From positions 496,001-560,000 of the forward strand of contig NZ_JAMJWD020000001.1 in the NCBI RefSeq assembly GCF_023554255.2: a DNA stretch of 64,000 nucleotides. Reading direction: 5' to 3'. Source of the stretch: Phyllobacterium sp. 21LDTY02-6. GTDB taxonomy: Bacteria; Pseudomonadota; Alphaproteobacteria; Rhizobiales; Rhizobiaceae. Numbering within the stretch: position 1 is the stretch's first letter; each line of letters opens with the position of its first letter. Both the position numbers and the translations under genes were made by a program. This document shows, piece after piece, positions 5,466 to 64,000 of the stretch. Below the pieces are notes generated by a model, which ran no database searches, had not been told where the DNA came from, and was given only the letters and a program-made list of their open reading frames with translations.

Positions 5466-5501
5466 AGAAATCTGATCCTCCAGTCAGATGAAGGCGGAAG
5501 G

Positions 5502-5530
5502 CCCGGAGCTTGCTCCGGGTCTTCTGTTTC
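5502..5530. terminator. bidirectional intrinsic terminator
   Basis: A perfect stem CCCGGAG with tetraloop CTTG and CTCCGGG (5502-5519) sits between the convergent efflux and ATPase genes. It is followed on the plus strand by a T-rich tract (TCTTCTGTTT), so it can end plus-strand transcripts; on the minus strand the tract is weaker. Confidence 0.7.
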
Positions 5531-6071
5531 AAGCGCCTTGTTTCAGGATGAAGTCCGCGCGCTCTTCCACCGGCAGCCGCGGCACCTCGACCAGATCATA
5601 GCCGCAATCGCGGTAGGCGCGCAGCATTGCCTCATAGGTGCGTTCCGCGTCGGCAAAATCCTGTTTGCGCTCCGTATCCTGGCCGAATATCTCCTTCCAC
5701 GGCGGAAGAATGAACACGGTCCGGTGATACCGATAGAGTTCCGCCGCCCGTCTCACATGAGCGGGGACCGCGATTCCGACAAGGCCGAGATAGCCGATGA
5801 CATCGGGAACGCCGCGGTCGAAGTAGATGCGCTGCGGACTTTCCGGCGCAGTGGCATGCGAGCGCAACTCCCATGCGAGCATCAGCTCGGCAAACAGCAG
5901 CGGATCGTTCCAGGGCAGGGCGGGGCCGCCTATGGCCTGGTGGTACTGGATGATGGCGCGGCCGGCTTCGCTGCTTGTCGCATGGCCCTTGTGCGCAAGC
6001 TCGCCGAGCAATGTCGTTTTGCCCGATCCCGGGCCGCCGGTGAGAATGGTGAAACGTTGATGATTCTGCAC
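5529..6071 (-). CDS. P-loop AAA-type ATPase/kinase-like protein (AAA_28 type)
   Basis: With the GTG start at 6071 the product has 180 residues. The Walker A motif GGPGSGKTT is at residues 12-20, followed by conserved EAGRAIIQYHQ and YFDRGVPDVIGYL, the latter close to the Asp-Arg-Gly seen in AAA_28/NadR-like nucleotide kinase proteins. I chose GTG because AAGGAG lies 8 bases upstream. A longer frame back to 6239 is open, but its extra residues are low in conservation character and run into the 3' part of the tmRNA gene. Function is a probable small-molecule or nucleotide kinase; substrate unknown. Confidence 0.75.
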   Translation of the reverse strand: MQNHQRFTILTGGPGSGKTTLLGELAHKGHATSSEAGRAIIQYHQAIGGPALPWNDPLLFAELMLAWELRSHATAPESPQRIYFDRGVPDVIGYLGLVGIAVPAHVRRAAELYRYHRTVFILPPWKEIFGQDTERKQDFADAERTYEAMLRAYRDCGYDLVEVPRLPVEERADFILKQGA

Positions 6072-6174
6072 GGATGTCTCCTTATGGAAGGCCGAGCCAC
6101 AGCCTTGCGGCATGGCACGAATGTCGGCGCAGCGCCGACAGACTGATCGATGAAAATCTGGAGATGGGAAAAGC

Positions 6175-6495
6175 AAAGGGGGAAAGTGAAGGCTTCTGTT
6201 GCCAGGTGCCTCCGAACCCCGCCTAGAAGTGCGAACCACTAGGACTTGATTTGAAGCTATCGCACCGCATTAAGCGGCGAGACGTGCTTCCGCATAGTTG
6301 TCGTTTGCAACTACTGAGTTAGCCCGATAACGGTGGTACAATGCCGGGCAAAAGTTCGATCTTTACACCCTTGTCGATCCTATTTCGCCCCCGCCAAAAC
6401 GCAGCTCCGAGTGCTGGATTTTGGTGGAGGCGCCGGGTACCGCCCCCGGGTCCAATGGGCTTATTGCATCGTCCGTTTATCGCCATAGCCGACCG
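6175..6495 (-). ncRNA. ssrA: tmRNA, circularly permuted two-piece form
   Basis: On the minus strand the acceptor piece comes first: a T-arm CCGGG-loop-CCCGG, then acceptor strand CGCCTCC and ACCA ending at 6422. After a short intervening segment the coding piece starts at 6392 with GGGGGCG, which pairs with CGCCTCC and gives the G3-U70 pair required by alanyl-tRNA synthetase. The tag frame at 6308-6270 reads ANDNYAEARLAA then TAA. Order acceptor-before-coding and the tag type are known for alphaproteobacterial permuted tmRNA. Outer ends are approximate. The T-loop is GGCGGTA rather than the usual TTCRANY. A TATATA sequence upstream of the acceptor piece could be part of its promoter. Confidence 0.92.
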
Positions 6496-6682
6496 AAGCC
6501 GGCACGACCTATATAGGGACTATCGCGCTGAATTAAAAGAGTGCATTGACTTGGGCATGCGGCTGAGGAATGTTTCACTCTGTATCAGCGGTGTCGAACG
6601 GAGCTTGTGAGCTTTGGACGGTGTCCGCATTGTCAGGGAGGCGGCAACCTCTAGTTGCGCCTAACAATCAGGGGATGATTCC

Positions 6683-6994
6683 ATGAGTGACTATCTTACC
6701 GATGTTCGCCGCTATGATGCCGCGGCCGATGAAGCAACGGTCGAAAAAATCGTCAAGCACCTCGGTATCGCGCTGCGCAACCGTGATTCGTCGCTTGTAT
6801 CCTGTTCGGATCCTGACGAGCTTAAGCGCGTGCGTACAAACTGGGTGGAAAAGAAGCTCGGATTGACCGATGAGACCAAGGCGGATGCAGCAATCCAGTC
6901 CGTATGCGAAACGCTGAAGGATGATCGCAGCAAGAGCCGCGTGACGTTCTATTACCTGACGGCGAAGGCGCTCGGCGCGCTTGGCAGCATCTAA
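6683..6994 (+). CDS. DUF2853 family protein
   Basis: A 103-residue acidic, soluble, all-helical protein. The sequence from SDYLTDVRRYDAAADEATVEKIVKHLGIALRNRDS to the C-terminal RVTFYYLTAKALGAL is a full-length match in pattern to DUF2853, a small family of unknown function in alphaproteobacteria. A GGGGATGATTCC segment precedes the ATG. It stands alone, with the minus-strand tmRNA upstream and its own terminator downstream. Confidence 0.8.
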   Translation: MSDYLTDVRRYDAAADEATVEKIVKHLGIALRNRDSSLVSCSDPDELKRVRTNWVEKKLGLTDETKADAAIQSVCETLKDDRSKSRVTFYYLTAKALGALGSI

Positions 6995-7021
6995 GGCCGA
7001 TTCGGTAACGGTGCTTTGCGG

Positions 7022-7049
7022 GCCCCGGTCTCGACCGGGGCTTTCGTTT
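7022..7049 (+). terminator. intrinsic terminator of the DUF2853 gene
   Basis: GCCCCGGTC (7022-7030) pairs with GACCGGGGC (7033-7041) and is followed by TTTCGTTT. The two central bases are a minimal loop, so in practice one or two inner pairs open. It lies 28 bases after the DUF2853 stop. The remaining gap to thyA shows no other gene. Confidence 0.75.
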
Positions 7050-7209
7050 GTCCGGGTTTGATCGGTGAGGATCTGCCGTTCCGCGATGGTGCAGACGATT
7101 TCTGTGGCCTAGACTGTGCTGGAGATTCGTTTGACTTGTGCCCAGCGCGCCCGGCGGTCTAACACCGCCTTGTCAGTGCGTCAGCGCCAACTCCAGTGAG
7201 AGCCGAACC

Positions 7210-8106
7210 ATGTATCATGCCGAATCGCAATATCTGGATCTCATGTCCTTCATCCTCGAGAAGGGGGACAAGCGCATGGACCGCACGGGCGTCGGCACGC
7301 TTTCCACATTCGGCGCGCTGATGCGGTTCGACCTTTCGGATGGCAGCGCACCGATCCTCACCACCAAGAAGGTTTACTGGAAGCTGGCGGTGAAGGAGAT
7401 GCTCTGGTTCCTAACGGGCGGCACCAATATCCAGGCTCTGCTGAAGGAGAATGTCCGGATCTGGAGCGACTGGCCGCTGGCCGCCTATCGAAAGGCCACC
7501 AATAGCGACATTTCCCAGGCGGAATTCGAGAAGCGCATTGTCGAAGACGACCAGTTCGCCGCTGAATGGGGCGAGCTCGGGCCGGTCTACGGCAAGCAAT
7601 GGCGGCGCTGGCGCGGTGCCGACGGCAAGGATTACGACCAGATCGCAACCCTGATCGAGACTCTTCGCAACAATCCGTCCAGCCGAAGGATGTTGTTCCA
7701 CGCCTGGAACGTGCCTGAACTTTCGGATATGGCGCTGCCGCCCTGCCACATGGTCTACCAGTTCCACGTTTCGCATGGCGATCGCCTCAATCTCCTGATG
7801 TTCCAGCGCAGCTGCGACCTTCTGCTGGGCGCGCCGTTCAACCTCGCCGGCGCGGCCGCCTTGCAGCACATGATAGCGCAGCAGGCGGGGCTGAACCTTG
7901 GCGAGCTGGTCTGGGTGGGTGGCGACGTTCATCTTTATCTCAATCATATCGATCAGGCGCGCGAGCAGCTGTCGCGCACGCCACGGCCATTTCCGAAGAT
8001 GCGCCTCAAGCGCCAGGCAGCGTCGATCGACGATTACAGGATCGATGATTTTGAAGTCGTCGACTACGATCCGCACCCCGCCATCGCCGCCGAGGTCGCA
8101 GTCTAG
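7210..8106 (+). CDS. thyA: thymidylate synthase
   Basis: A 298-residue ThyA that methylates dUMP to dTMP with methylene-tetrahydrofolate. The nucleophile is Cys179 in LPPCHMVYQF, and the dUMP-binding QRSCDLLLGAPFN and the HLYLNHIDQ segments are intact. It is longer than the 264-residue E. coli enzyme because of an insert around residues 86-118, common in other bacteria. I use ATG 7210 (MYHAESQYLDLM), since the family starts here; the open frame continues to 7138. Dihydrofolate produced by this enzyme is recycled by DHFR encoded 2.2 kb downstream. Confidence 0.97.
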   Translation: MYHAESQYLDLMSFILEKGDKRMDRTGVGTLSTFGALMRFDLSDGSAPILTTKKVYWKLAVKEMLWFLTGGTNIQALLKENVRIWSDWPLAAYRKATNSDISQAEFEKRIVEDDQFAAEWGELGPVYGKQWRRWRGADGKDYDQIATLIETLRNNPSSRRMLFHAWNVPELSDMALPPCHMVYQFHVSHGDRLNLLMFQRSCDLLLGAPFNLAGAAALQHMIAQQAGLNLGELVWVGGDVHLYLNHIDQAREQLSRTPRPFPKMRLKRQAASIDDYRIDDFEVVDYDPHPAIAAEVAV

Positions 8107-8112
8107 GCGCGG

Positions 8113-8895
8113 TCAGGCCTCGACATCCACCTCTATCCAGACCGGAGCGTGGTCGCTGCTCTTGGGCCAGCCGCGCACGTGCCGATCGACATTTCCCGCC
8201 CGCAGGGATCTGGCGAGCGTCGGATTGAGCAGGAAGTGGTCCAGCCGCAGCCCGGCATTGCGTCCCCACGCGTTGCGGAAATAGTCCCAGAAGGTAAATA
8301 TCTGCTCCTGCGGATGCAGCGTGCGTATGGCGTCGGTCCAGCCGCTGTCGACAAGCGCCTTGAACAGGGATCGCACTTCCGGCCGGAACAGGGCGTCGCC
8401 TTCCCAGCGTTCGGGCTTGTAGACGTCGAGCGCCGTGGGCATGACATTATAATCGCCGACCAGCGCGACGGGAGCCTCTATGGAAGAGAGCTCGCCGGCA
8501 TGGGCAAGCAACCGGTTGAACCAGGCCAGCTTGTAATCGAATTTCGGACCCGGAGCCGGATTGCCGTTCGGCAGATAGATATTGCCGATCAGCACACCGC
8601 CGACCGCAGCTTCGATATAGCGGCTTTGCACGTCTTCCGGATCGCCGGGCAGGCCGCGCCGCGTTTCGACCGGCTCGGCGTCACGGGCGAGAATTGCAAC
8701 GCCGTTCCAGCTCTTCTGGCCATGCCAGATTGCGCCATACCCAGCCTTTTCAATGGCTTGCAAGGGAAAGTTGTCTTGCTGTGCCTTGAGTTCCTGCAGA
8801 CACACGACGTCGGGCGCTGCTTCCTCAAGCCATTTCAGCAGGACCGGGAGGCGTCCATTGATGCCATTGATGTTGAAAGTGGCAATTTTCATCAT
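8113..8895 (-). CDS. xthA: exodeoxyribonuclease III
   Basis: A 260-residue member of the exonuclease III/AP endonuclease family, which cuts DNA 5' to abasic sites and removes 3' blocking groups in base excision repair. Conserved elements are KIATFNINGINGRL, the metal-ligand Glu in CLQELKAQ, GDYNVMPTALDVYKP, WDYFRNAWGRNAGLRLDH and the terminal catalytic SDHAPVW. Two Met codons open the frame; the second (8892) also fits. It converges on thyA with 6 bp between stops. Confidence 0.95.
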   Translation of the reverse strand: MMKIATFNINGINGRLPVLLKWLEEAAPDVVCLQELKAQQDNFPLQAIEKAGYGAIWHGQKSWNGVAILARDAEPVETRRGLPGDPEDVQSRYIEAAVGGVLIGNIYLPNGNPAPGPKFDYKLAWFNRLLAHAGELSSIEAPVALVGDYNVMPTALDVYKPERWEGDALFRPEVRSLFKALVDSGWTDAIRTLHPQEQIFTFWDYFRNAWGRNAGLRLDHFLLNPTLARSLRAGNVDRHVRGWPKSSDHAPVWIEVDVEA

Positions 8896-8946
8896 GCGCC
8901 GCCCGGCTTCGTCATCGGCGCGAGGCGGCGCATGTTTCGCATTCCG

Positions 8947-9198
8947 CTAGCGCCGGATCATTCGGCCTGCCGCGATGAGGATACACGCTCCGATGAAACC
9001 GGCGACGAGATAGCCGAGCCAGCCCGAGAGCGCCACGCCGACGAAGGACAAGAGGGCATTGGCTATGATCGCGCCGACTATGCCGAGGATGATGTTCATG
9101 ATGATGCCCATATTGCTCTTCATGAACATTTCCGCGAGCCATCCCGCGATGCCGCCGATGATGATTGCCGCGAACCAGCCGACTTGTGCATCTTCCAT
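8947..9198 (-). CDS. GlsB/YeaQ/YmgE-family stress-response membrane protein
   Basis: An 83-residue, Gly-rich membrane protein with three hydrophobic segments (WFAAIIIGGIAGWLAEMF, MGIIMNIILGIVGAIIANALL, LGYLVAGFIGACILIAAG). This matches the transglycosylase-associated/GlsB family, small inner-membrane proteins often induced by envelope or acid stress. Biochemical role is unknown. Confidence 0.85.
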   Translation of the reverse strand: MEDAQVGWFAAIIIGGIAGWLAEMFMKSNMGIIMNIILGIVGAIIANALLSFVGVALSGWLGYLVAGFIGACILIAAGRMIRR

Positions 9199-9372
9199 TT
9201 GAATTCTCCTGCGCTGAAAAGATTGAGCGCGAGCGCGCCCCGCTGTCTAAACGCAGAACTGCCGTTCTGGTTCATTCGCCAGTATTGGGCAAGGCCCCGT
9301 TTTTCGCAAGGAAGGAACCAATACCGTCCCGGAGCCTTTCTGTTCCAGCGCGGTTTTAGCCTGGAGGATAGG

Positions 9373-9678
9373 ATGGACACCGGAAATCTGCAGATGCAGG
9401 GCCTTTGCCTCGCCCTGGCATCGCTCAATGAACTTCTCGTCGAAAAAGGTCTCGTGAGCCAGTCGGAAGTGGATAGGGCCCTCGCCAGGGCGGAGGCGGG
9501 CGCGACCGGCGACGATCGCTTCGCCGAACTCCTCGCGCCGCAGCAGCGTGATGCGGTGTGCTTCCCCATACGATTTCTGCGCCTCGCCAATGAAGGCGGC
9601 GCCGACCTGGAATTGTCGTTCAGCGGATTGGCGAAGCGCGTCGGCATGACCAAGGCGCAGTATAATGACCAGCGATAG
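9373..9678 (+). CDS. hypothetical protein
   Basis: A 101-residue soluble protein. The start at 9373 is set by GGAGGAT seven bases upstream; the same frame is open far to the left, but there it only mirrors xthA on the other strand. The segment LNELLVEKGLVSQSEVDRALARAEAG looks like a small two-helix element and resembles a subunit-interface helix seen in various enzymes, without enough length to name a family. No function assigned. Confidence 0.6.
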   Translation: MDTGNLQMQGLCLALASLNELLVEKGLVSQSEVDRALARAEAGATGDDRFAELLAPQQRDAVCFPIRFLRLANEGGADLELSFSGLAKRVGMTKAQYNDQR

Positions 9679-9727
9679 TTGAACGGCGACGGAACATATC
9701 CGGCCTGCGCGCAGTTTAGGTCCGTAA

Positions 9728-10093
<366 letters not shown>

Positions 10094-10170
10094 ATTTTGG
10101 GCGGCGGCGGAGAAGTCGCTCGATCGCCCTGCGATGGCGGCCTGATCCTATAAGTACGGACGGCTGGATG

Positions 10171-10197
10171 ACGCGCCTTGGGGCGCGTTATTTTTTT
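10171..10197 (+). terminator. intrinsic terminator
   Basis: Perfect 7-bp stem ACGCGCC-TTGG-GGCGCGT (10171-10188) followed by TA and seven T residues. It ends the transcript of the preceding small gene and separates it from folA. Confidence 0.85.
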
Positions 10198-10274
10198 GTC
10201 CTTCCGTGCTTGTTGGCAGGTTTCATATTGCCTACAACTCCGCCTTCGAGATCAATCGAACCAGGCAGGCAGAA

Positions 10275-10778
10275 ATGATCAGTTTCGTAGTTGCGATCGC
10301 GCAGAACGGCGTTATTGGACGAGAGAACGATCTGCCCTGGCGCCTCTCCACGGACCTGAAGCGCTTCAAGGCCACGACGATGGGCAAGCCCATCATCATG
10401 GGGCGCAAAACGTGGGAATCGCTGGGACGGCCCTTGCCGGGACGGACGAATATCGTCGTGACGCGCGATACCGGCTTCGCGGTCGAGGGCGTTATCGCGG
10501 TGCGGTCGATCGACGAGGCGTTGCTGGTCGCCGGCAGCCATGCCGCGGCAGACAGGGTCAACGAGATCTGCATCATCGGCGGCGGGGAAATCTTCAGGCA
10601 GGCCCTGAACAGGGCCGATCGGCTGCATGTGACCTGGGTTCTCGCCGATATTGAAGGCGACGTGCATTTCCCGCCCATCGATCCGGCCGTCTGGGAAGAA
10701 AAATCGAGCGAGGAGTTCCCCTCGGGCGAGAAGGACAGCCATCCTACGCGCCACGTGGTCTATGACCGGCGTCGGTAA
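10275..10778 (+). CDS. folA: dihydrofolate reductase
   Basis: A 167-residue chromosomal-type DHFR that reduces dihydrofolate to tetrahydrofolate with NADPH. The start at 10275 gives MISFVVAIAQNGVIGRENDLPW, placing the catalytic acid at Asp27 exactly as in E. coli. Other conserved parts are GKPIIMGRKTWESLGRPLPGR (cofactor binding) and CIIGGGEIFRQAL. An open frame back to 10206 lacks family resemblance. It functions with ThyA encoded upstream. Confidence 0.96.
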   Translation: MISFVVAIAQNGVIGRENDLPWRLSTDLKRFKATTMGKPIIMGRKTWESLGRPLPGRTNIVVTRDTGFAVEGVIAVRSIDEALLVAGSHAAADRVNEICIIGGGEIFRQALNRADRLHVTWVLADIEGDVHFPPIDPAVWEEKSSEEFPSGEKDSHPTRHVVYDRRR

Positions 10779-10876
10779 GGGATCGCGCACCGTCGACATT
10801 GATATGATAATATCGTGATAGAGCCTGATAATCGTTTGTTTTTTCAGTAAAACCTTTCGAAATGCCAAGGCGCGCG

Positions 10877-10905
10877 TTGAAAGCGCGTCCTGCGATCCCT
10901 ATAAA
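10877..10905 (+). promoter_or_regulatory. predicted promoter of hflKC
   Basis: TTGAAA at 10877-10882 and TATAAA at 10900-10905 are separated by exactly 17 bp, 65 bases before the hflK start. The string CCTATAAAC also resembles alphaproteobacterial RpoH -10 elements, so heat-shock control is possible; this is inference. Confidence 0.55.
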
Positions 10906-10970
10906 CGGGTGATCGGACCAGCGAGGGGAGGCCACGGGGTGGCGCTTTTCGTTCAAATTAAGAGGTAGGA

Positions 10971-12074
10971 ATGCCCTGGAGTAATCAGAACGGTGGCGGC
11001 GGCCCATGGGGTGGCGGCGGAAACAATAATGGTGGAGGCGGTGGCCCGTGGGGCCAGAAACCCCAGGGCGGCGGCGGAGGCAAGACGCCTCCCGATCTCG
11101 AAGATATTTTCAGGCGCGGCCAGGACCGTCTGCGCCAGGCCATTCCCGGCGGCACCGGCGGAAGCCCGGCAATATGGATCGTCGGCGTCCTCGCGCTGGT
11201 CGCCTTCTGGATCTTCCAGTCCGTCTATACCGTGCAGCCGGACGAGCGCGCGGTGGAGCTTCGCTTCGGCAAGCCGAAGCCTGATATCGCCGAGCCCGGA
11301 TTGCATTTCCATCTCTGGCCCATCGAGACCTATGAAAAGGTCGAAATCGTCGAGAAGCAGAAGAATATCGGCGGCCAGGGAACAAGGGGCGCGAAAGAGG
11401 GCCTGATGCTGTCGGGCGACCAGAATATCGTCGACGTGCAGTTCTCGGTGCTTTATCGCATTTCCGATCCCGTTTCCTATCTATTCCACGTGGAAAATCC
11501 GGAAAACCTCGTCCAGCAGGTATCCGAAAGCGCCATGCGCGAGATCGTCGGACGCAGCCCTGCGCAGGATATTTTCCGCGACAACCGTGCCGGCATAGCC
11601 AATGACGTGCGGGCGATCATCCAGCGCACGCTGGACGAGTATCGCTCAGGCGTCGCGATCAACGCCGTTTCCATCGAGGATGCCGCGCCGCCGCGCGAAG
11701 TGGCGGATGCCTTCGACGAAGTCCAGCGTGCCGAGCAGGACGAAGACAGGTTTGTCGAAGAGTCGAACCAGTATTCGAACCAGAAGCTGGGTGAAGCTCG
11801 CGGGCAGGGCGCGCAGATTCGCGAAGATGCCGCCGCCTACAAGAACCGTATCGTCCAGGAGGCGGCCGGTGAGGCCCAGCGCTTCACCTCGGTTTACGAT
11901 GAATATGTCAAGGCACCGGACGTTACGCGCCAGCGCCTTTACCTTGAGACCATGGAGCGTGTGCTGAAGGATTCCACCAAGGTGATCGTCGATCAGAACG
12001 GGCAGGGCGTCGTTCCCTATCTGCCATTGCCCGAGCTGAGCAGGCAACAGAACTCCGCAAAGGGAGCACAGTGA
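10971..12074 (+). CDS. hflK: FtsH protease modulator HflK
   Basis: A 367-residue inner-membrane SPFH/band-7 protein. Residues 1-50 are a Gly/Asn/Pro-rich cytoplasmic tail, followed by one membrane helix near 62-85 (PAIWIVGVLALVAFWIFQSVYTV) and the SPFH domain starting VQPDERAVELRFGKP. The later half is the Glu/Arg-rich coiled coil that forms the cage wall with HflC. HflKC surrounds and tempers the FtsH membrane protease. GAGGTAGGA precedes the ATG. hflC follows with a 1-4 base overlap. Confidence 0.95.
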   Translation: MPWSNQNGGGGPWGGGGNNNGGGGGPWGQKPQGGGGGKTPPDLEDIFRRGQDRLRQAIPGGTGGSPAIWIVGVLALVAFWIFQSVYTVQPDERAVELRFGKPKPDIAEPGLHFHLWPIETYEKVEIVEKQKNIGGQGTRGAKEGLMLSGDQNIVDVQFSVLYRISDPVSYLFHVENPENLVQQVSESAMREIVGRSPAQDIFRDNRAGIANDVRAIIQRTLDEYRSGVAINAVSIEDAAPPREVADAFDEVQRAEQDEDRFVEESNQYSNQKLGEARGQGAQIREDAAAYKNRIVQEAAGEAQRFTSVYDEYVKAPDVTRQRLYLETMERVLKDSTKVIVDQNGQGVVPYLPLPELSRQQNSAKGAQ

Positions 12075-13015
12075 TGAACCAGAACCGTCTCCCTTTCATT
12101 GCAGGCATCGTCGTTCTTCTCGGCCTGCTCGTCTACGCCTCCGTTTTCGTGGTCAAGGCCGGCCAGCAGGCCATCGTCCTGCGTTTCGGTGAAATCGTCG
12201 ATGTGAAAACCGACCCCGGCATCTATTTCAAACTGCCGTTCAGCTTCCTTGAAGCGGACAATGTCCAGTGGATCGAGGATCGCCTGCTCAGCTTCGAGCT
12301 CGACAATATCCGTGTCCAGGTTTCGGGCGGCAAGTTCTACGAGGTCGATGCCTTCCTCGTCTATCGCATCACCGATCCGCGCAAGTTCCGCCAGACCGTC
12401 TCCGGCGACATCACCCTTGCCGAGGCGCGGCTGCGCACACGCCTGGACGCATCGTTGCGCGGTGTATACGGCCTGCGCGGCTTCGAGGCGGCATTGTCAG
12501 ACGAGCGCGCCGGCATGATGCGCGAAGTACGCGAACAGCTGCGTCCGGATTCGGAATCGCTCGGCCTTCAGATCACCGACGTTCGTATCCGGCGCACCGA
12601 CCTGACGCAGGAAGTGTCGCAGCAGACCTTCGAGCGCATGAAGGCGGAGCGCCTGGCGGAAGCCGAGCGTCTCCGGGCGCGCGGACGTGAAGCGGCCCAG
12701 CGCATCAAGGCAATCGCCGACCGCCAGGTCGTCGAGATCGTGGCCGAGGCGCGCAAGGAATCCGAGATCATCCGCGGCCAGGGTGAAGGCGAGCGCAACC
12801 GCATCTTCGCCGAAGTCTTCTCGAAGGACCCCGACTTCTTCACGTTCTACCGTTCCATGTCGGCCTATAGCGCCGCCCTGGAGAATTCCGGTACGACGAT
12901 GGTATTGTCGCCGAACTCGGAATTCTTCCGCTACTTCCAGGGCGCGGCCGGGGCCGTTCCGCCGGCAGCCGGTGCCGCACCGGCGCGTCCCGCCGCTCCT
13001 GCTCCTGCTCAGTAA
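12074..13015 (+). CDS. hflC: FtsH protease modulator HflC
   Basis: A 313-residue partner of HflK with an N-terminal membrane helix (PFIAGIVVLLGLLVYASVFVVKAG) and the SPFH domain (QQAIVLRFGEIVDVKTDPGIYFKLPF). The C-terminus is a Pro/Ala-rich tail. I chose the ATG at 12074, which overlaps the hflK stop by one base and has AGGGAG about 8 bases upstream; an in-frame GTG one codon earlier is the alternative. DUF2065 follows in the same operon. Confidence 0.95.
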   Translation: MNQNRLPFIAGIVVLLGLLVYASVFVVKAGQQAIVLRFGEIVDVKTDPGIYFKLPFSFLEADNVQWIEDRLLSFELDNIRVQVSGGKFYEVDAFLVYRITDPRKFRQTVSGDITLAEARLRTRLDASLRGVYGLRGFEAALSDERAGMMREVREQLRPDSESLGLQITDVRIRRTDLTQEVSQQTFERMKAERLAEAERLRARGREAAQRIKAIADRQVVEIVAEARKESEIIRGQGEGERNRIFAEVFSKDPDFFTFYRSMSAYSAALENSGTTMVLSPNSEFFRYFQGAAGAVPPAAGAAPARPAAPAPAQ

Positions 13016-53212: not shown

Positions 53213-53800
53213 TCAGCCGACCCGGTAGCCGACTTCTTCGGCTGCATGACCCAAAATGGTCCAGAACGAGCGTGCGAAGGTTCTGAATATGTAGAGATCG
53301 AAGGCATCTTGATCGACTCGCTGGATGAGAGCGTGGATATCATGATGAAGCGTCGCGCGGCCATGGCCAACAGCGAAGGCGTGCTCGGAGAAATCCAGCG
53401 CGAAAAGCTTGGAAAGCACCCACTCGGACGCCGGGCCCGCAATGCGGATCACGCAGCGGCCATGTGTCAGGGGAACGATAGTGCCGAGATCGGCGGAAAT
53501 GGCTGAACGAAGCCTCGTCTCAAGATCCGCCGACGCGGCTGTGACAAGGAAGCGTCCGGGGGCAAAGCCGAACACGGATTTTTCGCCAGCGACGCGACCG
53601 AGGCCCGGCTTGTTGTCGATGATGAGCCCGGTGGCGCTGCCGATCGCGGTGAGGACGGTAGGGATGGTGTTCGGCCAGGCCGTGACCTGGATGATCGAAA
53701 GGTTCCTGCGTTCGGCAAGCGAGACACCTATACCCGCCGCGACATTGCCATGCTCGCCGGCAATATAGTTCGAACCGAGAGGAGAATCGATTTCAGCCAT
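53213..53800 (-). CDS. soxG: sarcosine oxidase gamma subunit
   Basis: A 195-residue SoxG subunit. AAGIGVSLAERRNLSIIQVTAWP, LGRVAGEKSVFGFAPGRFLV and the end FARSFWTILGHAAEEVGYRV match the family. SoxG is the small structural subunit of the heterotetrameric enzyme that oxidises sarcosine to glycine and formaldehyde equivalents. ATG 53800 overlaps the soxA stop by 8 bases; the frame is open further upstream but inside soxA. Confidence 0.9.
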   Translation of the reverse strand: MAEIDSPLGSNYIAGEHGNVAAGIGVSLAERRNLSIIQVTAWPNTIPTVLTAIGSATGLIIDNKPGLGRVAGEKSVFGFAPGRFLVTAASADLETRLRSAISADLGTIVPLTHGRCVIRIAGPASEWVLSKLFALDFSEHAFAVGHGRATLHHDIHALIQRVDQDAFDLYIFRTFARSFWTILGHAAEEVGYRVG

Positions 53801-56780
53801 GCATGCGGCTCCCTTCGCGGTCGAACATGTGGTGGCTGACGATCTCGACAGGACCATGCTTGTCGCGCAACAGGTCGGACGCATAGGCGCGCCGGCCGAT
53901 CATCGAGCTGCCGTGCTTGACGAGGGCGAGCGCAACATATTTGCCGAGGGCGGGGGAATAGCAGGCCGCCGTGACATGGCCGAAACTGTCGGCCGGTTCG
54001 CGCGGCGTCGCATCCGCCACGATATGACTGCCGCCGTTGATCGGCTGGTTGTCGAGGGAAATCAGCCCGACGAGCGAAAGCCGGTTGTTGTCCTGCAGGC
54101 CTTCACGCCCGAGCATGGCGGAGCCGATGAACGGCTTCTTCTTCGACAGCATCCAGTCCAGATGCAGATCATGCGCCGTGGTTCGTCCGTCGATCTCCGC
54201 GCCCGTCACATGGCCCTTCTCGATGCGCAGGGTCCCAAGCGCCTCAAGGCCATAGGGAACGATGCCAAAGGGCGTACCCGCCGAGATGAGGGCTTCCCAC
54301 ATGGCAGTTCCGAAACCGGCGCCGCAATAGACCTCGTAGGCAAGCTCGCCGGAGAAGGAGAGGCGGCAGATCATCACGGGAATATCGCCGATCCTGGCAT
54401 GAACGATGCCCATGAACGGCAAGGTCGCATCATCGACCTTGCTTGCCGTGACGCAGCTTTCCAGCACGGCGCGCGATTTCGGTCCCGCGATCGCCGCTCC
54501 GGCCCAAACATCGGTGACCGATGTCAGATGCACGCGCAGGTCCGGCCAGATGCAATCGAGGTAATATTCCAGATGCTGCATGACGGGGCCGGCATTGGCC
54601 GTCGTCGTCGTCATGAGAAACTGATCCTGGCCGAGCCGCCAGGTGGTGCCATCGTCAAAGACGATGCCGTCTTCGCGGAGCATCAAGCCGTAGCGTGCCT
54701 TGCCGATGGGCAGGGTCGAGAACATGTTGGTGTAGACGCGATCCAGAAATTCCGCCGCATCGGGTCCCTGGATGTCGATCTTGCCAAGCGTCGACACGTC
54801 GACGATGCCGACGCTGTCACGTACGGTGCGGGCCTCGCGTATATAGGCCTGTTCGATTGTTTCGCCGGGACTGCCATAGATCATCGGGCGGTGCCATAGG
54901 CCGGCATCATACATGGTCGCTCCAGCCGAGAGGTGCCAGTCATGTATGGGCGTCAGCCGGTGCGGCCGCAAATCGCCGTAACGCTCGCCCGCAAGTGCGC
55001 CGAGCGAAACCGGCGTGAAGGGGGGGCGAAAACGCGTTGTTCCGGCGGCGGTGATCGGGATCTGCCTCGCATCCGCCATGATCGCCAGGCCGGGAACGTT
55101 CGACGTCTTGCCCTGGTCGGTCGCCATGCCGAGCGTGGTGTAGCGCTTCAGGTGCTCGACGGAATGGAAACCTTCGCGATAGGCGAGGCGGATATCGTCG
55201 GCCGTCACGTCATGCTGCAGATCGACGAAAGCCTTTTGGGTCTTTCCGTCCGGTTCTATCTGGTATACCGGGGCGGGCGATGCATCGAACATGGGCGCAT
55301 CGACCGTGGGCAAAGCGGCGCGGTGTTTTGCCGAACCCTTGGTGGCGGCGTCCGACAATACGCTGATCGTATCCATATAGCCGGCCGCGCTGCCGGCAAC
55401 GACCCAGTTCTGGTGAGCTTCCGGCGCGAGGAATGCCTGCAGGTCCTCGTCCCATTCAGGTTTCCCGCCGGCCTGGCTGGCAAGATGGATGGCCGGAGAC
55501 CAACCGCCGGAAACGCCGAGACAATCGGTCTTTATCTCGCGTGGCGCACCGGAGACCCGGCCCGTCTGCGCATTGAAGTGCTGGACCGTGATGGAACTGA
55601 GCGTCTTGCCTGCGTGAGTGGCCGTGACGGCATGGCCGAGCAACAGTTCGGCACCCGCAACATCGGCTATGTCGCGGCATGTGCCGGAGATGTCGGTGCG
55701 GACATCGATGATGGTGCCGATGCCGACCCCCGCCTGCGAAAGCGTCCGCGCGACATCGTAGGCGCTGTCATTGTTGGTGAAGAGCGCGATGTTGCTGCCC
55801 GCGGCCACGCCATATTCCATGGCGAAACGGCGAACCGCGTCCGCCAGCATGACGCCGGGCCTGTCATTGCCCGGAAACACGATCGGCCGTTCGAATGCGC
55901 CCGTCGCCAGTATGGTCTTGCCGGTACGGATTACCCAATGACGCTGCCGCGGCTGGCCCTCCGTGCGGTTGGGCTTGAAATCGGCAACATGTTCGATTGC
56001 CGCAAGGACGTTGCCGTCGTAGTGCCCCCAGACCGTGGTCCTCGTCAGAAAGCGGACATTCGGCAGGCCCGCCAGCAACTCCGCCTTCTCGCGCGCCCAT
56101 ACTGCCGGGTTGCGGCCATCGATCAACTCGCCGGACGAAACCAGCGAGCCGCCCGCAACGGGTCGTTCCTCGGCAATGATGACGCGCGCGCCGGTCGCGG
56201 CCGCCGTCTCGGCGGCAATCAGGCCCGCGGGGCCCGTGCCCACGACCAGCACGTCGCAATAGGCGTTCATTCTCTCATAGCGATCAGGATCGGCAGCCAT
56301 GCCGGCCCTGCCGAGTCCGGCAGCCCGGCGGATGAACTTTTCGCAGAACATCCAGAAGCGGGTGCCGCGCAACGGCCCGATGGCCGGGCCCATGAACGTC
56401 TTGTAGTAGAAACCCGCCGAGAAGAGGGGCCCCGCCAGCTGGTTCACCGCCATCAGATCATGTTCGAGCGACGGGAACCGGTTCTGGCTCTCGGCCACGA
56501 GTCCATCATGAATTTCGGCTTCCGTCGCCCGCACGTTCGGCTCGCGCACCTCGCCGTCGATGAGCGTGACCAGGGCATTCGGTTCCTCGCTGCCGGCGGC
56601 AAACACACCTCGCGGCCGGTGATACTTGAACGAGCGACCGAAGAGCGTCACGCCATTTGCAAGGAGCGCGGATGCGAGCGTGTCACCCGGATGACCCGTA
56701 TAGGCCTTGCCGTCGAAGATGAAGCGGATGGTTCGGGACCTCTCGATACGTCCGCCGGTGTTCAACCTGGAACTCGTCAT
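53793..56780 (-). CDS. soxA: sarcosine oxidase alpha subunit
   Basis: A 995-residue subunit. Order of parts: a ferredoxin-like N-terminus (IRFIFDGKAYTGHPGDTLASALLANGVTLFGRSFKYHRPRG), an NAD/FAD-binding region (CDVLVVGTGPAGLIAAETAAATGARVIIAEE near residue 175), and a C-terminal glycine-cleavage T-like folate domain (GIVDVSTLGKIDIQGPDAAEFLDRVYTNMFS onward). It passes the C1 unit to tetrahydrofolate. Its ATG overlaps soxD by 4 bases. Full length for the family. Confidence 0.95.
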   Translation of the reverse strand: MTSSRLNTGGRIERSRTIRFIFDGKAYTGHPGDTLASALLANGVTLFGRSFKYHRPRGVFAAGSEEPNALVTLIDGEVREPNVRATEAEIHDGLVAESQNRFPSLEHDLMAVNQLAGPLFSAGFYYKTFMGPAIGPLRGTRFWMFCEKFIRRAAGLGRAGMAADPDRYERMNAYCDVLVVGTGPAGLIAAETAAATGARVIIAEERPVAGGSLVSSGELIDGRNPAVWAREKAELLAGLPNVRFLTRTTVWGHYDGNVLAAIEHVADFKPNRTEGQPRQRHWVIRTGKTILATGAFERPIVFPGNDRPGVMLADAVRRFAMEYGVAAGSNIALFTNNDSAYDVARTLSQAGVGIGTIIDVRTDISGTCRDIADVAGAELLLGHAVTATHAGKTLSSITVQHFNAQTGRVSGAPREIKTDCLGVSGGWSPAIHLASQAGGKPEWDEDLQAFLAPEAHQNWVVAGSAAGYMDTISVLSDAATKGSAKHRAALPTVDAPMFDASPAPVYQIEPDGKTQKAFVDLQHDVTADDIRLAYREGFHSVEHLKRYTTLGMATDQGKTSNVPGLAIMADARQIPITAAGTTRFRPPFTPVSLGALAGERYGDLRPHRLTPIHDWHLSAGATMYDAGLWHRPMIYGSPGETIEQAYIREARTVRDSVGIVDVSTLGKIDIQGPDAAEFLDRVYTNMFSTLPIGKARYGLMLREDGIVFDDGTTWRLGQDQFLMTTTTANAGPVMQHLEYYLDCIWPDLRVHLTSVTDVWAGAAIAGPKSRAVLESCVTASKVDDATLPFMGIVHARIGDIPVMICRLSFSGELAYEVYCGAGFGTAMWEALISAGTPFGIVPYGLEALGTLRIEKGHVTGAEIDGRTTAHDLHLDWMLSKKKPFIGSAMLGREGLQDNNRLSLVGLISLDNQPINGGSHIVADATPREPADSFGHVTAACYSPALGKYVALALVKHGSSMIGRRAYASDLLRDKHGPVEIVSHHMFDREGSRMHG

Positions 56781-60222: not shown

Positions 60223-60361
60223 AATACAGAGTTTACTTTGGGAAGTGGATTTCAGCTTCGACCTCGGCTGGTTCACTAATCATTTTTACTTTTTCTCTAA
60301 TCCCGCATATTGATACAGCGCCGTGCGAGCGAGCGCGCTCGTCGGTGTCAGGGATTCTGTG

Positions 60362-61801
60362 GTGGACTCTTCTTCAAAAAACAATATCGCCGACCTTATC
60401 GTCGATCTCGATGGCACTTTGATTGCCACTGATCTTCTTTGGGAAAGTATGTTTCAGCTTCTCAAGCAGAATGTGCTTTATCTATTTGTTCTGCCATTCT
60501 GGGCGATAAAGGGAAAAGGCTATCTGAAGCATAGAATATCCCTGCTGGTGAACATTGATCCGACCATTTTGCCGTATCGGACCGATTTCATCGACTTCCT
60601 GCGGTCGGAGCGTGCCCGCGGCCGGCGGCTCATTCTTGCCACCGGTGCAGCGAAGCGTTTCGCCGATGCCATTGCGGAATATCTCGGCATCTTCGACTTC
60701 GTCCATGCGACCGACGCCAAACGCAATCTCACCTCCACCAACAAGACGAACTTTCTGCTCGAGACATATGGCGATGTGAAATTCGCCTATGCGGGAAACA
60801 GTCGTGCCGATATCCCGGTGTTCAATGCTGCCTCCGAGGTGATTGTCGTCGCGCCGGATCGTGCAGCGGCCCGATGGCAGCGGAAACATGCCTCGCGCCT
60901 GTTCCAATCGCCAAAACTCCATTGGAAATCCATCCTGAAAATGCTGCGCGTGCATCAGTGGATGAAGAACACGCTCATTTTCGTTCCGGCCATACTCGAT
61001 CACGAGATCATGAACTGGCAGGTCCTTTTCAGCGCGCTCATCGCCTTTTGCGCCTTTTCCAGCGCTGCATCGGCGATCTATATCATCAATGACCTCCTCG
61101 ATCTTCCGCTCGACAGAAAGCATGCGCGGAAAAAGCACCGGGTATTTGCAAGCGGCGTCTTTTCGATCCCTTTCGGCATCGTGGTGTCCGGCGGCTTGCT
61201 TGGCATTGCGGTGCTGCTCTCCTTGCAATTGCCCTGGGCGTTCAGCGCCGTGCTGGCGCTTTATGTGGTCGCCACCAGCGCCTACTCGCTATCGCTGAAG
61301 CGGATGCTGTTGATCGACGTCTTCACGCTCGCCGGCCTCTATACGCTGCGCATCCTCGCCGGTTCGGCCGCCAACGAGATCGAAGGCTCGTTCTGGCTCC
61401 TTGCCTTTTCATCGTTCTTCTTCATCTCGCTGGCGCTGGTGAAACGATATGTGGAATTGCAGTCCGTGGCACATTCGGCCAATGACAGGATCGCGGGGAG
61501 GGGCTATCGCCCGGCGGACAAGGAGATAATCGCGCAATGCGGTGTCGCCGCGGCCTTCGCCGCAGCGCTGGTTCTGGCGCTCTATGTCGATAGCGACGCC
61601 GTAGTCAGCCTTTATGCCTACCCATGGCTGATCTGGCCGCTATGCCCGATCGTGCTCTATCTCAACATCCGCATCTGGATACTGGCCTATCGCGGCGAGA
61701 TGCATGACGATCCGGTGGTTTTCCTGATTTCCGACTGGCGCAGCCTGATAATGATCGGTGTCGGGGCGGTACTGCTACTATATGGCGGCATGCGCCTATG
61801 A
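60362..61801 (+). CDS. HAD domain fused to UbiA-family prenyltransferase (decaprenyl-phosphate phosphoribosyltransferase-like)
   Basis: A 479-residue fusion from GTG 60362. The N-terminal ~190 residues are a HAD phosphatase: DLDGT (nucleophile), LATGA (motif II) and GNSRADIPVFNAA (motif IV). The C-terminal ~280 residues are a UbiA membrane transferase, with NDLLDLPLDRKHARKKHR as the NDxxDxxxD prenyl-diphosphate motif and ~8 membrane helices. This architecture is like the enzymes that attach phosphoribose to decaprenyl phosphate (mycobacterial Rv3806c) and like NoeC of Azorhizobium; the HAD half would remove the 5-phosphate. The GTG start is chosen from AGGGA upstream; 60323 is possible. Confidence 0.82.
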   Translation: MDSSSKNNIADLIVDLDGTLIATDLLWESMFQLLKQNVLYLFVLPFWAIKGKGYLKHRISLLVNIDPTILPYRTDFIDFLRSERARGRRLILATGAAKRFADAIAEYLGIFDFVHATDAKRNLTSTNKTNFLLETYGDVKFAYAGNSRADIPVFNAASEVIVVAPDRAAARWQRKHASRLFQSPKLHWKSILKMLRVHQWMKNTLIFVPAILDHEIMNWQVLFSALIAFCAFSSAASAIYIINDLLDLPLDRKHARKKHRVFASGVFSIPFGIVVSGGLLGIAVLLSLQLPWAFSAVLALYVVATSAYSLSLKRMLLIDVFTLAGLYTLRILAGSAANEIEGSFWLLAFSSFFFISLALVKRYVELQSVAHSANDRIAGRGYRPADKEIIAQCGVAAAFAAALVLALYVDSDAVVSLYAYPWLIWPLCPIVLYLNIRIWILAYRGEMHDDPVVFLISDWRSLIMIGVGAVLLLYGGMRL

Positions 61802-63117
61802 GCGGACCTTGCTTTGACAGTTTCGGCCGCATTCGGCGTCAGCTACGAAAATCCGTAAGCCTGGACAAGGCGCGCGAGATTTTCCTGGAACGTGGCGCCG
61901 GCAGTGCCAGCTATCTCGCCTATGGCAATGGCAGGTCCTATGGCGACAGCTGCCACAATGATGCCGGGAGCCTTGTGGATATGCGCGATGCCGACGCGTT
62001 GATCCACTTCGATGCGAATACGGGTCTTCTCACGGCTCAGGCGGGCATGCTGCTGTCGCAGATCATCGCGATTGCCGCGCCGCACGGCTATTTCCTGCCG
62101 GTCACGCCGGGGACGCGTTTCGTCACACTCGGCGGCGCCATCGCCAATGATGTCCATGGCAAGAATCATCATCGCCGGGGGACGTTCGGCCGCCATGTCG
62201 AGAACCTGAAATTGCTTCGGTCCGACGGCACGGTCAGCACGTGCTCCGGAACCAGCCATGCGGAGCTCTTCGCAGCGACGATCGGTGGGCTCGGCCTCAC
62301 CGGGATAATCTTGTCGGCGACCGTGAAGCTGATGCGGGTGGGCTCGCTGGACATCCTCGAACGGATCACTCCATTCAACAGTCTCGAAGACTATTTCGCT
62401 ATGGCGTCCGAAGCCGATCTCGACAACGAATATGCGGTCGCCTGGGTGGATCAACTCGCCTCCGGTGCAACATCCGGCCGCGGCGTCCTCATAACCGGCA
62501 ATCACGCGGAAAAGGGCGGGCACCGCACGCCGGAATCGCCGGGAAATCTCGGCGTGCCTTTCGAAACGCCAATTTCGTTGCTCAATTATCCGAGCCTGAA
62601 GCTGTTCAATATGGCCTATTTCTGGATGAAGAGCCGCAAGACCGAACCTCATATGGTCGGATACGGCTCCTTCTTCTATCCGCTGGATCAATTGCGGAAC
62701 TGGAACAGGCTCTACGGAACGGCGGGGCTGTTTCAGCACCAGAGCGTCATTCCGGAGCAGGCGGCACTGGCAACGATACCGAAGATGCTCAAGGCGACAC
62801 GCGATGCCGGTCAAAGCTCGTTCCTCACCGTCCTCAAGCGCTTTGGCGACGTCGCTTCGCCCGGATTACTTTCGTTTCCGCAGCCGGGATATACGTTGAC
62901 GGTGGATTTTCCCAATCGCGGTCAACGCACGCTGGCGCTGTTGAAGCGCCTGGACGACATGACGATCGATGCCGGCGGACGCATCAACCCGTACAAGGAT
63001 CAGCGCATGAGTTCCCACAGCTTCAAGCGCGGATTTCCGATGTGGGATCAACTGGAGACATGGCGCGATCCGGCAATCATGTCGAACTTCTGGGCAAGGA
63101 CGGCGCTGGCGTCATAG
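61798..63117 (+). CDS. DprE1-like FAD-binding oxidase
   Basis: A 439-residue flavoprotein of the vanillyl-alcohol-oxidase fold. The FAD-binding YGNGRSYGD is near residues 42-50, and His120-GKNHH with FGRHVENLKLL matches the FAD-linking motif of DprE1, which oxidises decaprenylphosphoryl-ribose at C2. The later LTVDFPNRGQRTLALLKRLDD and GGRINPYKDQRM are also family-like, the Lys being a probable catalytic residue. ATGA overlap with the UbiA gene indicates a coupled operon. Confidence 0.87.
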   Translation: MSGPCFDSFGRIRRQLRKSVSLDKAREIFLERGAGSASYLAYGNGRSYGDSCHNDAGSLVDMRDADALIHFDANTGLLTAQAGMLLSQIIAIAAPHGYFLPVTPGTRFVTLGGAIANDVHGKNHHRRGTFGRHVENLKLLRSDGTVSTCSGTSHAELFAATIGGLGLTGIILSATVKLMRVGSLDILERITPFNSLEDYFAMASEADLDNEYAVAWVDQLASGATSGRGVLITGNHAEKGGHRTPESPGNLGVPFETPISLLNYPSLKLFNMAYFWMKSRKTEPHMVGYGSFFYPLDQLRNWNRLYGTAGLFQHQSVIPEQAALATIPKMLKATRDAGQSSFLTVLKRFGDVASPGLLSFPQPGYTLTVDFPNRGQRTLALLKRLDDMTIDAGGRINPYKDQRMSSHSFKRGFPMWDQLETWRDPAIMSNFWARTALAS

Positions 63118-63197
63118 CGGCAATATCAAATTTTACACAAGAGCTTGGTGGCTTTTCAACTTATGGTTGTTATTGGATCGAGCAAGGGGCGGGCATA

Positions 63198-63626
63198 ATG
63201 ACAAAATACATCCCATTCATACTCTTCACCGTCATGACGAATGCGGCGGCGCAGGTCATGCTCAAATATGGCATGATCACGCTTGGTCCGATCAGCTTCA
63301 GCATGGATACGCTGATCCAGCGTGTCTTTCAGATCGTGTTCAACCCCTGGGTGTTCGCCGGTCTGGTCATGTTCGTCATATCCATGGCGTCCCACCTTTA
63401 TGTGCTCTCGAAGGTCGATCTCTCCTTCGCCTACCCCTTCTTGAGCCTTGCCTATGTCGCAGTGGCTCTCTTTGCCTGGCTGGTCTTCAAGGAAGATCTC
63501 GGCATCTACAAAATCGCCGGCATTGCGTTGATCATGGCCGGCACCATCCTCATCGCGCAAAGCGGGCGCTCGGTTCCGGAGAATACCGGTCTCGGAGAAC
63601 CCCCGGCGTCCACGACCTCTTCCTGA
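63198..63626 (+). CDS. SMR/EamA-like small membrane protein
   Basis: A 142-residue protein with four hydrophobic segments, like half of an EamA transporter or an ArnE/F-type flippase subunit: YIPFILFTVMTNAAAQVMLKYGMITLG, WVFAGLVMFVISMASHLYVLSKVDLSFAYPFLSLAYVAVALFAWLVFKEDLGIYKIAGIALIMAGTILI. It is placed where a carrier that flips the finished polyprenyl-sugar would be expected. The 80 bases before it carry no other gene. GGGGCGGG precedes the ATG. Confidence 0.78.
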   Translation: MTKYIPFILFTVMTNAAAQVMLKYGMITLGPISFSMDTLIQRVFQIVFNPWVFAGLVMFVISMASHLYVLSKVDLSFAYPFLSLAYVAVALFAWLVFKEDLGIYKIAGIALIMAGTILIAQSGRSVPENTGLGEPPASTTSS

Positions 63627-63637
63627 GCGAGCATCCC

Positions 63638-64000
63638 ATGAAACACATCATTTTCGGTGGCGACGGATTTGTCGGCCGCCATCTTGCACCAAAACTGGCC
63701 GCGGAAGGCCAGGAGGTTGTCGTCGCGGACATCGTCAAGAGCGACTTGGCCCATTATGGGCAGGTACGTTTCTTCCATTGCGACGTTACCGATCCCAACT
63801 CCGTCCAGGCCGTGGGCATGACGGCAGGGGATATGGTCTATAACCTTTCCGCGAAGATGCTTTCGCCGCTGCAGGTCAGGGCCAAGCGGCATGATTTCTT
63901 CTTTCCGGTCAATTATTACGGCACGGAGAACATCATCAAGGAGATGGACCGGGCAGGGGCCAGCAATTTCGTCCACTACACCACCGATATGATTTACGGC
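63638..64000 (+). CDS. NAD-dependent epimerase/dehydratase, 5' part (continues past window)
   Basis: The first 121 residues of an extended SDR protein. MKHIIFGGDGFVGRHLAPKLAAEGQEVVVADI is the NAD-binding motif (GGxGFxG), FHCDVTDPNSVQAV and VYNLSAKM are the usual following strands, and YTTDMIYG the start of the active-site region. It starts 11 bases after the SMR-like gene. By position it may be the sugar epimerase that completes the pathway, but it is not the typical DprE2 short SDR. Confidence 0.75.
   Translation, partial: MKHIIFGGDGFVGRHLAPKLAAEGQEVVVADIVKSDLAHYGQVRFFHCDVTDPNSVQAVGMTAGDMVYNLSAKMLSPLQVRAKRHDFFFPVNYYGTENIIKEMDRAGASNFVHYTTDMIYG

Follow-up and report, generated by a model that had tools for sequence, protein, structure and literature searches.

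A lipid-linked pentofuranose operon of Phyllobacterium in which a transaminase most likely takes the place of the DprE2 reductase

Several described bacterial pathways build pentoses on a lipid carrier, and we compare with them an operon of Phyllobacterium sp. 21LDTY02-6 (genome of 4.6 Mb, 99.65% complete). The operon begins near the end of a stretch of 64,000 nucleotides (G000:C1:496001-560000), which as a whole is referred to as the window, and the following 30 kb were also read. It encodes a fusion of a HAD phosphatase with a UbiA phosphoribosyltransferase (HAD-UbiA), a DprE1-like oxidase, a flippase of the small multidrug resistance (SMR) type, an extended short-chain dehydrogenase/reductase (SDR) and a class III aminotransferase (AT). 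Most likely it represents a lipid-linked pentofuranose system with a transaminase in place of the DprE2 reductase.

The mycobacterial decaprenylphosphoryl-arabinose pathway (Rv3806c, DprE1/DprE2) shares with this operon, as predicted, the synthesis of lipid-phosphate-linked ribose from phosphoribosyl diphosphate (PRPP) and the DprE1-type oxidation. However, the Phyllobacterium operon is devoid of DprE2, carries an AT and an extended SDR, and has its phosphatase as a fused HAD domain. The noeC(N)HOP operon, responsible for Nod-factor arabinosylation in Azorhizobium and Rhizobium IRBG74, is likewise a lipid-phosphate-pentose pathway of the Hyphomicrobiales, but it makes D-Araf, whereas our operon contains an AT/SDR/SMR module instead of the reductase (PMC5080398, PMC2443382). 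The three-component pentofuranose system of Citrobacter youngae O1/O2 resembles it in having a HAD-UbiA protein with the same active-site motif, a GalE-type SDR, a flippase and a GT-C glycosyltransferase, and also in modifying a lipid-linked pentofuranose before export; it differs in its MATE flippase, which is of the SMR/EamA type in Phyllobacterium, where DprE1 and a class III AT are additionally present (PMC11127046). According to the same source, deletion and complementation revealed that the GalE-like SDR ORF13 of C. youngae O2 determines whether xylofuranose or ribofuranose is made, and SMR-type flippases are named in other systems; the word 'aminotransferase' is absent from its main text (PMC11127046).

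Aminotransferase and DprE2 in genomes with DprE1

A preliminary description of the window had recognised HAD-UbiA, the DprE1-like oxidase, the SMR protein and the SDR as a tight operon, and indeed all four genes are present, co-directional and tightly packed. The HAD-UbiA and DprE1-like genes overlap by 4 bp, and gaps of 11 bp and 8 bp separate SMR from SDR and SDR from AT, respectively, the AT gene being the last of the operon. The operon was interpreted there as a possible arabinan donor pathway similar to the mycobacterial or noeCHOP one, continuing past the window, perhaps with glycosyltransferases. The first enzymes agree with this interpretation, and the AT gene and a convergent GT-C gene were found just beyond the window end, but the arabinose-forming end of the pathway is not supported. 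The DprE2-like SDR anticipated in the next stretch was found neither in the locus nor in the genome (search with PRK07102, best score 84.6 bits), and the SDR of the operon is of the GalE/ORF13 epimerase type. Because DprE2 is lacking genome-wide, and an aminotransferase belongs to the operon, arabinose as the product is unsupported.

The relation between AT and DprE2 was examined in 289 genomes of the same class (thresholds: DprE1, E <= 1e-40; AT, E <= 1e-110; the same 289 genomes are assumed for both searches). A DprE1 homolog was detected in 31 of them, including the source genome. At 29 of the 30 other DprE1 loci a classical SDR is located right behind DprE1, and for each of these 29 neighbours PRK07102 was the first match and the DprE2 model the second. 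Their scores to PRK07102 range from 200 to 347 bits (the cut-off of 267 is passed by 14 of 29), save for the 75 bits of L125, where the contig ends and only 98 aa remain. The only DprE1 locus without such a neighbour belongs to G243, which is the sole other AT genome of this sample.

A genome-wide PRK07102 search of 21 AT genomes yielded nothing above 115 bits, with part of the candidates scored in some large genomes (e.g. 84/101 in G372). DprE1 was also seen in 19 of the 21 (unchecked in G007 and G011). Thus, DprE2 is present in none of the 19 AT genomes with DprE1, but in all six AT-less DprE1 genomes tested (G004, G364, G246, G312, G169 and G255; 248-340 bits), which corresponds to a Fisher p of 6e-6 with kinship ignored. 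Mapped onto a DprE1 tree with 70 rows, AT has to change state three times, and the number stays the same if only supported branches are counted; DprE2 was coded there as the complement of AT, and the locus tables contain no row with both or neither. These observations indicate that AT and DprE2 replace one another.

Which gene stands in for DprE2 is best seen in G364. Its DprE1 falls inside the AT clade, and HAD-UbiA, DprE1, SMR, SDR and the GT-C neighbour are retained; an AT of this clade was not found (best class III matches of 33-36% identity), and a DprE2-like gene (340 bits) lies elsewhere in the genome (L148 9236-13501; L180 9477-10229). As G364 combines the SDR with a DprE2-like gene in the absence of AT, it points to AT, and not the SDR, as the alternate of DprE2. 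Three other genomes of the G364 family were examined for a further case of AT loss, and they provide none, being without SDR, DprE1 and DprE2. For G364 itself, with DprE1, a DprE2-like gene and a C3-epimerase-type SDR and without AT, polyprenyl-P-lyxofuranose is the predicted product; lyxofuranose reportedly has no known example among solved carbohydrate structures (PMC11127046).

The genome G878 contains an operon of HAD-UbiA, SMR and SDR (the latter 41-43% identical; L174 7525-10374), with DprE1 absent from the genome and AT from the locus, to which the AT search was confined there. Since the SDR is present without DprE1, members of its family need not be accompanied by a 2-ulose, and the three-gene operon resembles a donor system of the xylofuranose type with SMR as flippase. 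AT was never seen without DprE1 where this was checked, i.e. in all 80 AT loci described below and in 19 genomes.

A natural contrast inside one genus is provided by G004, another Phyllobacterium, which carries the canonical DprE2-type version on the minus strand (L194 = G004:C33:107000-126900, approximately 4261-12641). Its operon encodes HAD-UbiA, DprE1 (48-50% identical), a DprE2-like SDR (249 bits to PRK07102), GtrA and a large membrane protein whose beginning, on visual inspection, resembles that of a GT-C enzyme.

Proposed pathway and its alternatives

Judging from its sequence, the HAD-UbiA protein (PF01040 and PF12710; NF006088, 605 bits, cut-off 351) fits polyprenyl-P-ribose synthesis. 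Its UbiA part aligns with 8j8j, the decaprenyl-phosphate phosphoribosyltransferase of M. tuberculosis (E 9e-21), and the protein contains the UbiA motif NDLLDLPLDR and the HAD motif DLDGT. An absence of PRPP-binding residues had been named in the preliminary description as a point that would speak against its interpretation; the pattern NDxxDxxxDR is in fact kept in 29/29 UbiA proteins, all from loci with this extended SDR family, and matches N247/D248/D251/D255 of C. youngae ORF15, which are required for in vitro activity (PMC11127046). DLDGT was recognised by pattern in 21/29; the other eight are L123, L149 and L166, which are without the HAD part, four variants (e.g. DLDNT, DLDHT, DLDGS) and the degenerate L173.

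The comparison of the oxidase with DprE1, also proposed at that time, identified DprE1 as the best solved relative in the PDB (E 2e-66 over 390 residues). The DprE1 equivalog model NF053785 gives 336 bits, under its cut-off of 500, and the HGKNHH and KD..R stretches are conserved. The protein has Thr at the position of the Cys in the NICVDFP motif of M. tuberculosis DprE1, a feature of 27/28 DprE1-like proteins, with Ala in L123. We take this Cys to be the benzothiazinone target.

The SDR belongs to PF01370 (Epimerase, E 1e-33) and is of the extended, not the DprE2, type; GGxGFxG and YGxSK are found in 19/19 aligned SDRs. A role in hopanoid side-chain modification was rejected: the best NCBIfam model is HpnA, yet at merely 59 bits against a cut-off of 368. 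AT belongs to PF00202 (E 3e-86) and aligns with PigE and putrescine AT; K288, presumably the lysine that binds pyridoxal phosphate, and D259 are invariant in 22/22 sequences.

Based on these assignments, the following route may be proposed. As is known from homologs, the UbiA domain would use PRPP to load polyprenyl phosphate with phosphoribose, from which the HAD domain would cleave the 5'-phosphate. The extended SDR might then turn the ribo into the xylo form by inversion at C3, in the manner of ORF13 from the undP-Xylf system, and the DprE1-like enzyme would oxidise C2 to a 2-ulose, which is again known from homologs. AT could aminate the ketone of the 2-ulose, replacing the reduction by DprE2 and giving a 2-amino-2-deoxy-pentofuranose, of xylo or lyxo configuration if C3 inversion precedes, depending on the order of steps. 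Finally, the SMR protein would flip the donor, and the GT-C enzyme would move the sugar onto a glycan in the periplasm.

By analogy with ORF13, the SDR is probably a C3-epimerase; if so, and if AT is the consumer of the DprE1 ketone, the donor is a 2-amino-2-deoxy-pentofuranose. On the strength of the observed gene content, motifs and conservation, the exclusion between AT and DprE2 and the fold match of the GT-C protein, we incline with modest confidence to the view that the cassette builds the donor of a lipid-linked amino-pentofuranose via transamination of the 2-keto sugar of DprE1. More tentatively, these systems might form a third DprE1 branch, comprising lipid-linked 2-amino-2-deoxy-pentofuranoses (xylo/lyxo) for at least two unrelated GT-C enzymes and the polyprenyl-P-lyxofuranose of G364.

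It is also conceivable, albeit unlikely, that the extended SDR replaces DprE2 and reduces the 2-ulose to arabinofuranose, with AT making a further change or serving the acceptor. Non-orthologous replacement is common, and SDR, SMR and AT all appear where DprE2 vanishes. On the other hand, G364 holds the SDR together with a DprE2-like gene and is without AT only, G878 has the SDR without any DprE1, and the published GalE-like SDR acts at C3 (PMC11127046).

Less likely again is an amination by AT at another position, either C3, where the SDR would supply a keto group, or C5, once oxidised to an aldehyde. In antibiotic biosynthesis, class III aminotransferases yield 5-amino-5-deoxyribose and 6'-amino sugars, the nearest relatives of AT presumably use terminal aldehydes, and AT is always accompanied by the SDR in the AT-selected loci (80/80). 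However, the DprE1 product would then have no consumer in genomes without DprE2, and the alternation of AT with DprE2 would be left unexplained. An ordinary polyprenyl-P-arabinofuranose pathway with AT as an unrelated neighbour is highly improbable, for although HAD-UbiA and DprE1 are as in arabinofuranose systems and comparable operons containing DprE2 are known (e.g. from G004 and Rhizobium sp. Kim5), no DprE2 was found in the source genome, AT has stayed in the cluster despite several changes of gene order and, in G243, alongside another UbiA/DprE1 pair, and to our knowledge an aminotransferase is absent from arabinose pathways.

Several points weigh against a transamination of the DprE1 product. 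PigE and putrescine AT, which we take to be the nearest characterised relatives of AT, presumably act on aldehydes, and sugar-nucleotide aminotransferases mostly belong to a class other than class III. The likeness of the SDR to ORF13 is one of type (extended SDR, motifs, HAD-UbiA neighbour), not of direct sequence comparison. The DprE2-like neighbours all stay under the cut-off of the DprE2 model (maximum 207 of 250 bits), and there were only three independent switches between AT and DprE2; the pairs test restates them, and three pairs cannot pass p 0.25. The identification of AT rather than the SDR as the replacement of DprE2 is drawn from the single genome G364, with G878 as support; DprE2 of G364 is not adjacent to DprE1, and the SDR of G878, being just 41-43% identical, may differ in function.

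A further point of this kind concerns the acceptor. The operon is present in P. trifolii CECT 7015 (L027), presumably the same type strain as PETP02. The lipid A of PETP02 is described as containing galacturonic acid and diaminoglucose, and the main text of that description has no occurrence of 'pentose', 'arabinose', 'xylose' or 'ribose' (PMC5644692). With no amino-pentose reported there, lipid A was rejected as a candidate and is probably not the acceptor (PMC5644692). As for Nod factors, visual inspection of the open reading frames of the window between 54 and 64 kb and of the next 30 kb revealed no nod gene, a family scan for nod genes not being part of this inspection.

Conservation of the gene set, flippase and glycosyltransferases

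When the genome collection was searched with AT, 388 relatives emerged, and the loci of the 80 best were examined. All five genes (HAD-UbiA, DprE1, SMR, SDR and AT) occur together in 79 of them, and the sole incomplete locus, L078, starts inside DprE1 at a contig end; the arrangement is therefore not due to chance. The SDR accompanies AT in 80/80. In a second, AT-blind sample of 397 genomes of the order, selected by the SDR (E <= 1e-70), 20 genomes carried the SDR, and in 18 of these AT lies within the fetched locus. The gene order was reshuffled in several lineages (L149, L166, L168, L172) with the genes remaining close together; in G914 the UbiA/DprE1 pair is on a separate contig. G243 belongs elsewhere in the class; its SMR, SDR and AT share 62-67% identity with their Phyllobacterium counterparts, against 41% for DprE1 and about 31% for UbiA, which is unfused. 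It seems that SMR-SDR-AT behaves as a module, which joined another UbiA/DprE1 pair in G243.

Within the genus Phyllobacterium the operon is a patchy trait: three genomes that are 94-97% complete (G005, G012 and G017) are without this AT, SDR or DprE1. More distant relatives of the SDR on plasmids of Azospirillum sp. B510 (44%) and Sinorhizobium garamanticum (30%) keep other gene company, including GMC oxidoreductases. The S. garamanticum plasmid cluster (L197 9938-17855) comprises HAD-UbiA, an NAD(P)-dependent oxidoreductase, a hypothetical protein, a GMC oxidoreductase, SMR and the 30% SDR, and is perhaps another modified lipid-linked pentose system.

The best NCBIfam match of the SMR protein is ArnF (58 bits, under the cut-off of 99). 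An SMR gene occurs in 102/103 module loci and in 0/30 DprE2-type loci, and GtrA in 0/103 and 8/30, respectively (three of the eight and one query were confirmed in Pfam). Annotated plasmid loci of the DprE2 type have the order HAD-UbiA, GtrA, FAD oxidoreductase, SDR. The flippase type thus changes along with the pathway.

The convergent neighbour of AT encodes a 569-aa membrane protein without a Pfam family match, which from its AlphaFold model (pLDDT 80) looks like an ArnT/AftA-like GT-C enzyme. In VIA, ArnT scored Z 10.2 over 382 residues, AftA 10.0 over 410, Pmt4 9.9, ALG12 9.2 and ALG6 9.1, values below 13 being modest for a helical protein; the leading rows were nearly all GT-C. Foldseek returned two matches below 0.001, both to ArnT (E 9e-6 and 1.5e-4). 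This GT-C type is found in 40/80 AT loci and, in G364, next to the operon without AT. A second type, initially noticed in Mesorhizobium and matching GT87 under the Pfam cut-off, occurs in 39/80; no locus has both, and L048 has neither. A gene for an FkbM-type methyltransferase is present in 27/80; in Mesorhizobium L067 (11420-13404) the second GT-C (weak GT87) and an FkbM methyltransferase directly follow AT. A single-donor cassette beside alternative transferases fits the passing of the same sugar to different acceptors.

Positions of the Phyllobacterium genes are listed in Table 1; gene positions in the loci of relatives were taken from tblastn. HAD-UbiA read from the GTG at 60362 has 479 aa, the commonest length among relatives. 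Downstream of the GT-C gene, a Pfam scan identified a dimethylglycine/sarcosine dehydrogenase-like gene, followed by others outside the set. By eye, the flanks of the operon (53793-56780; L002 9054-19857; L003) contain sarcosine oxidase, dimethylglycine dehydrogenase, corrinoid and MttB-like methyltransferase genes and look like a methylamine/betaine one-carbon region, the family scan covering the first downstream gene only.

Table 1. Genes of the Phyllobacterium operon and the convergent glycosyltransferase gene (numbering from the first nucleotide of the window)
Feature	Position	Strand	Remarks
HAD phosphatase-UbiA phosphoribosyltransferase fusion	60323-61801	+	from upstream GTG; in-frame GTG at 60362 is the likelier start
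DprE1-like FAD oxidase	61798-63117	+	predicted 2'-oxidation of polyprenyl-P-pentofuranose
SMR/EamA-type flippase, nearest ArnF/ArnE	63198-63626	+	PF00892
Extended SDR (GalE/ORF13-type), candidate C3-epimerase	63638-64648 (window holds 63638-64000)	+	PF01370
Class III aminotransferase (AT)	64657-66099, past window end (L002:5658-7100)	+	PF00202
GT-C-like glycosyltransferase, 569 aa, convergent	66115-67824, past window end (L002:7116-8825)	-	predicted-structure match

Relation to known systems

If the proposed pathway is true, the modular pathways for lipid-linked pentofuranoses (Ribf, Xylf, Araf) would gain a nitrogen-bearing member, and plant-associated and environmental Hyphomicrobiales a positively charged surface sugar. 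An enzyme aminating a membrane lipid-linked ketose might be useful in glycan engineering, and the alternation of AT with DprE2 enables a sharp and cheap test.

A literature search, which covered few subscription journals, yielded no description of a lipid-linked furanose 2-amino-2-deoxy-pentose made via DprE1, and for the gene combination of this operon only the related PMC11127046. The sugar 2-amino-2-deoxy-xylose itself is already known, as UDP-N-acetylxylosamine (PMC5078965). That route shares a 2-amino-2-deoxy-xylose derivative with our proposal, but it is nucleotide-linked and without a lipid-linked DprE1 or UbiA step (PMC5078965).

The HAD-UbiA/GtrA/DprE1/DprE2 operons on plasmids of Rhizobium sp. 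Kim5 and Ruegeria sp. SCSIO 43209 have the same first enzymes as the operon of Phyllobacterium, and GtrA and a DprE2-like SDR where the latter has SMR, the extended SDR and AT. The Arn pathway of lipid A modification with Ara4N resembles the proposed cassette in another respect, as it also places an amino-pentose on polyprenyl phosphate and employs an ArnE/F-type SMR flippase and an ArnT-type GT-C transferase. However, Ara4N is a pyranose and derives from UDP-sugars through an aminotransferase of a different class.

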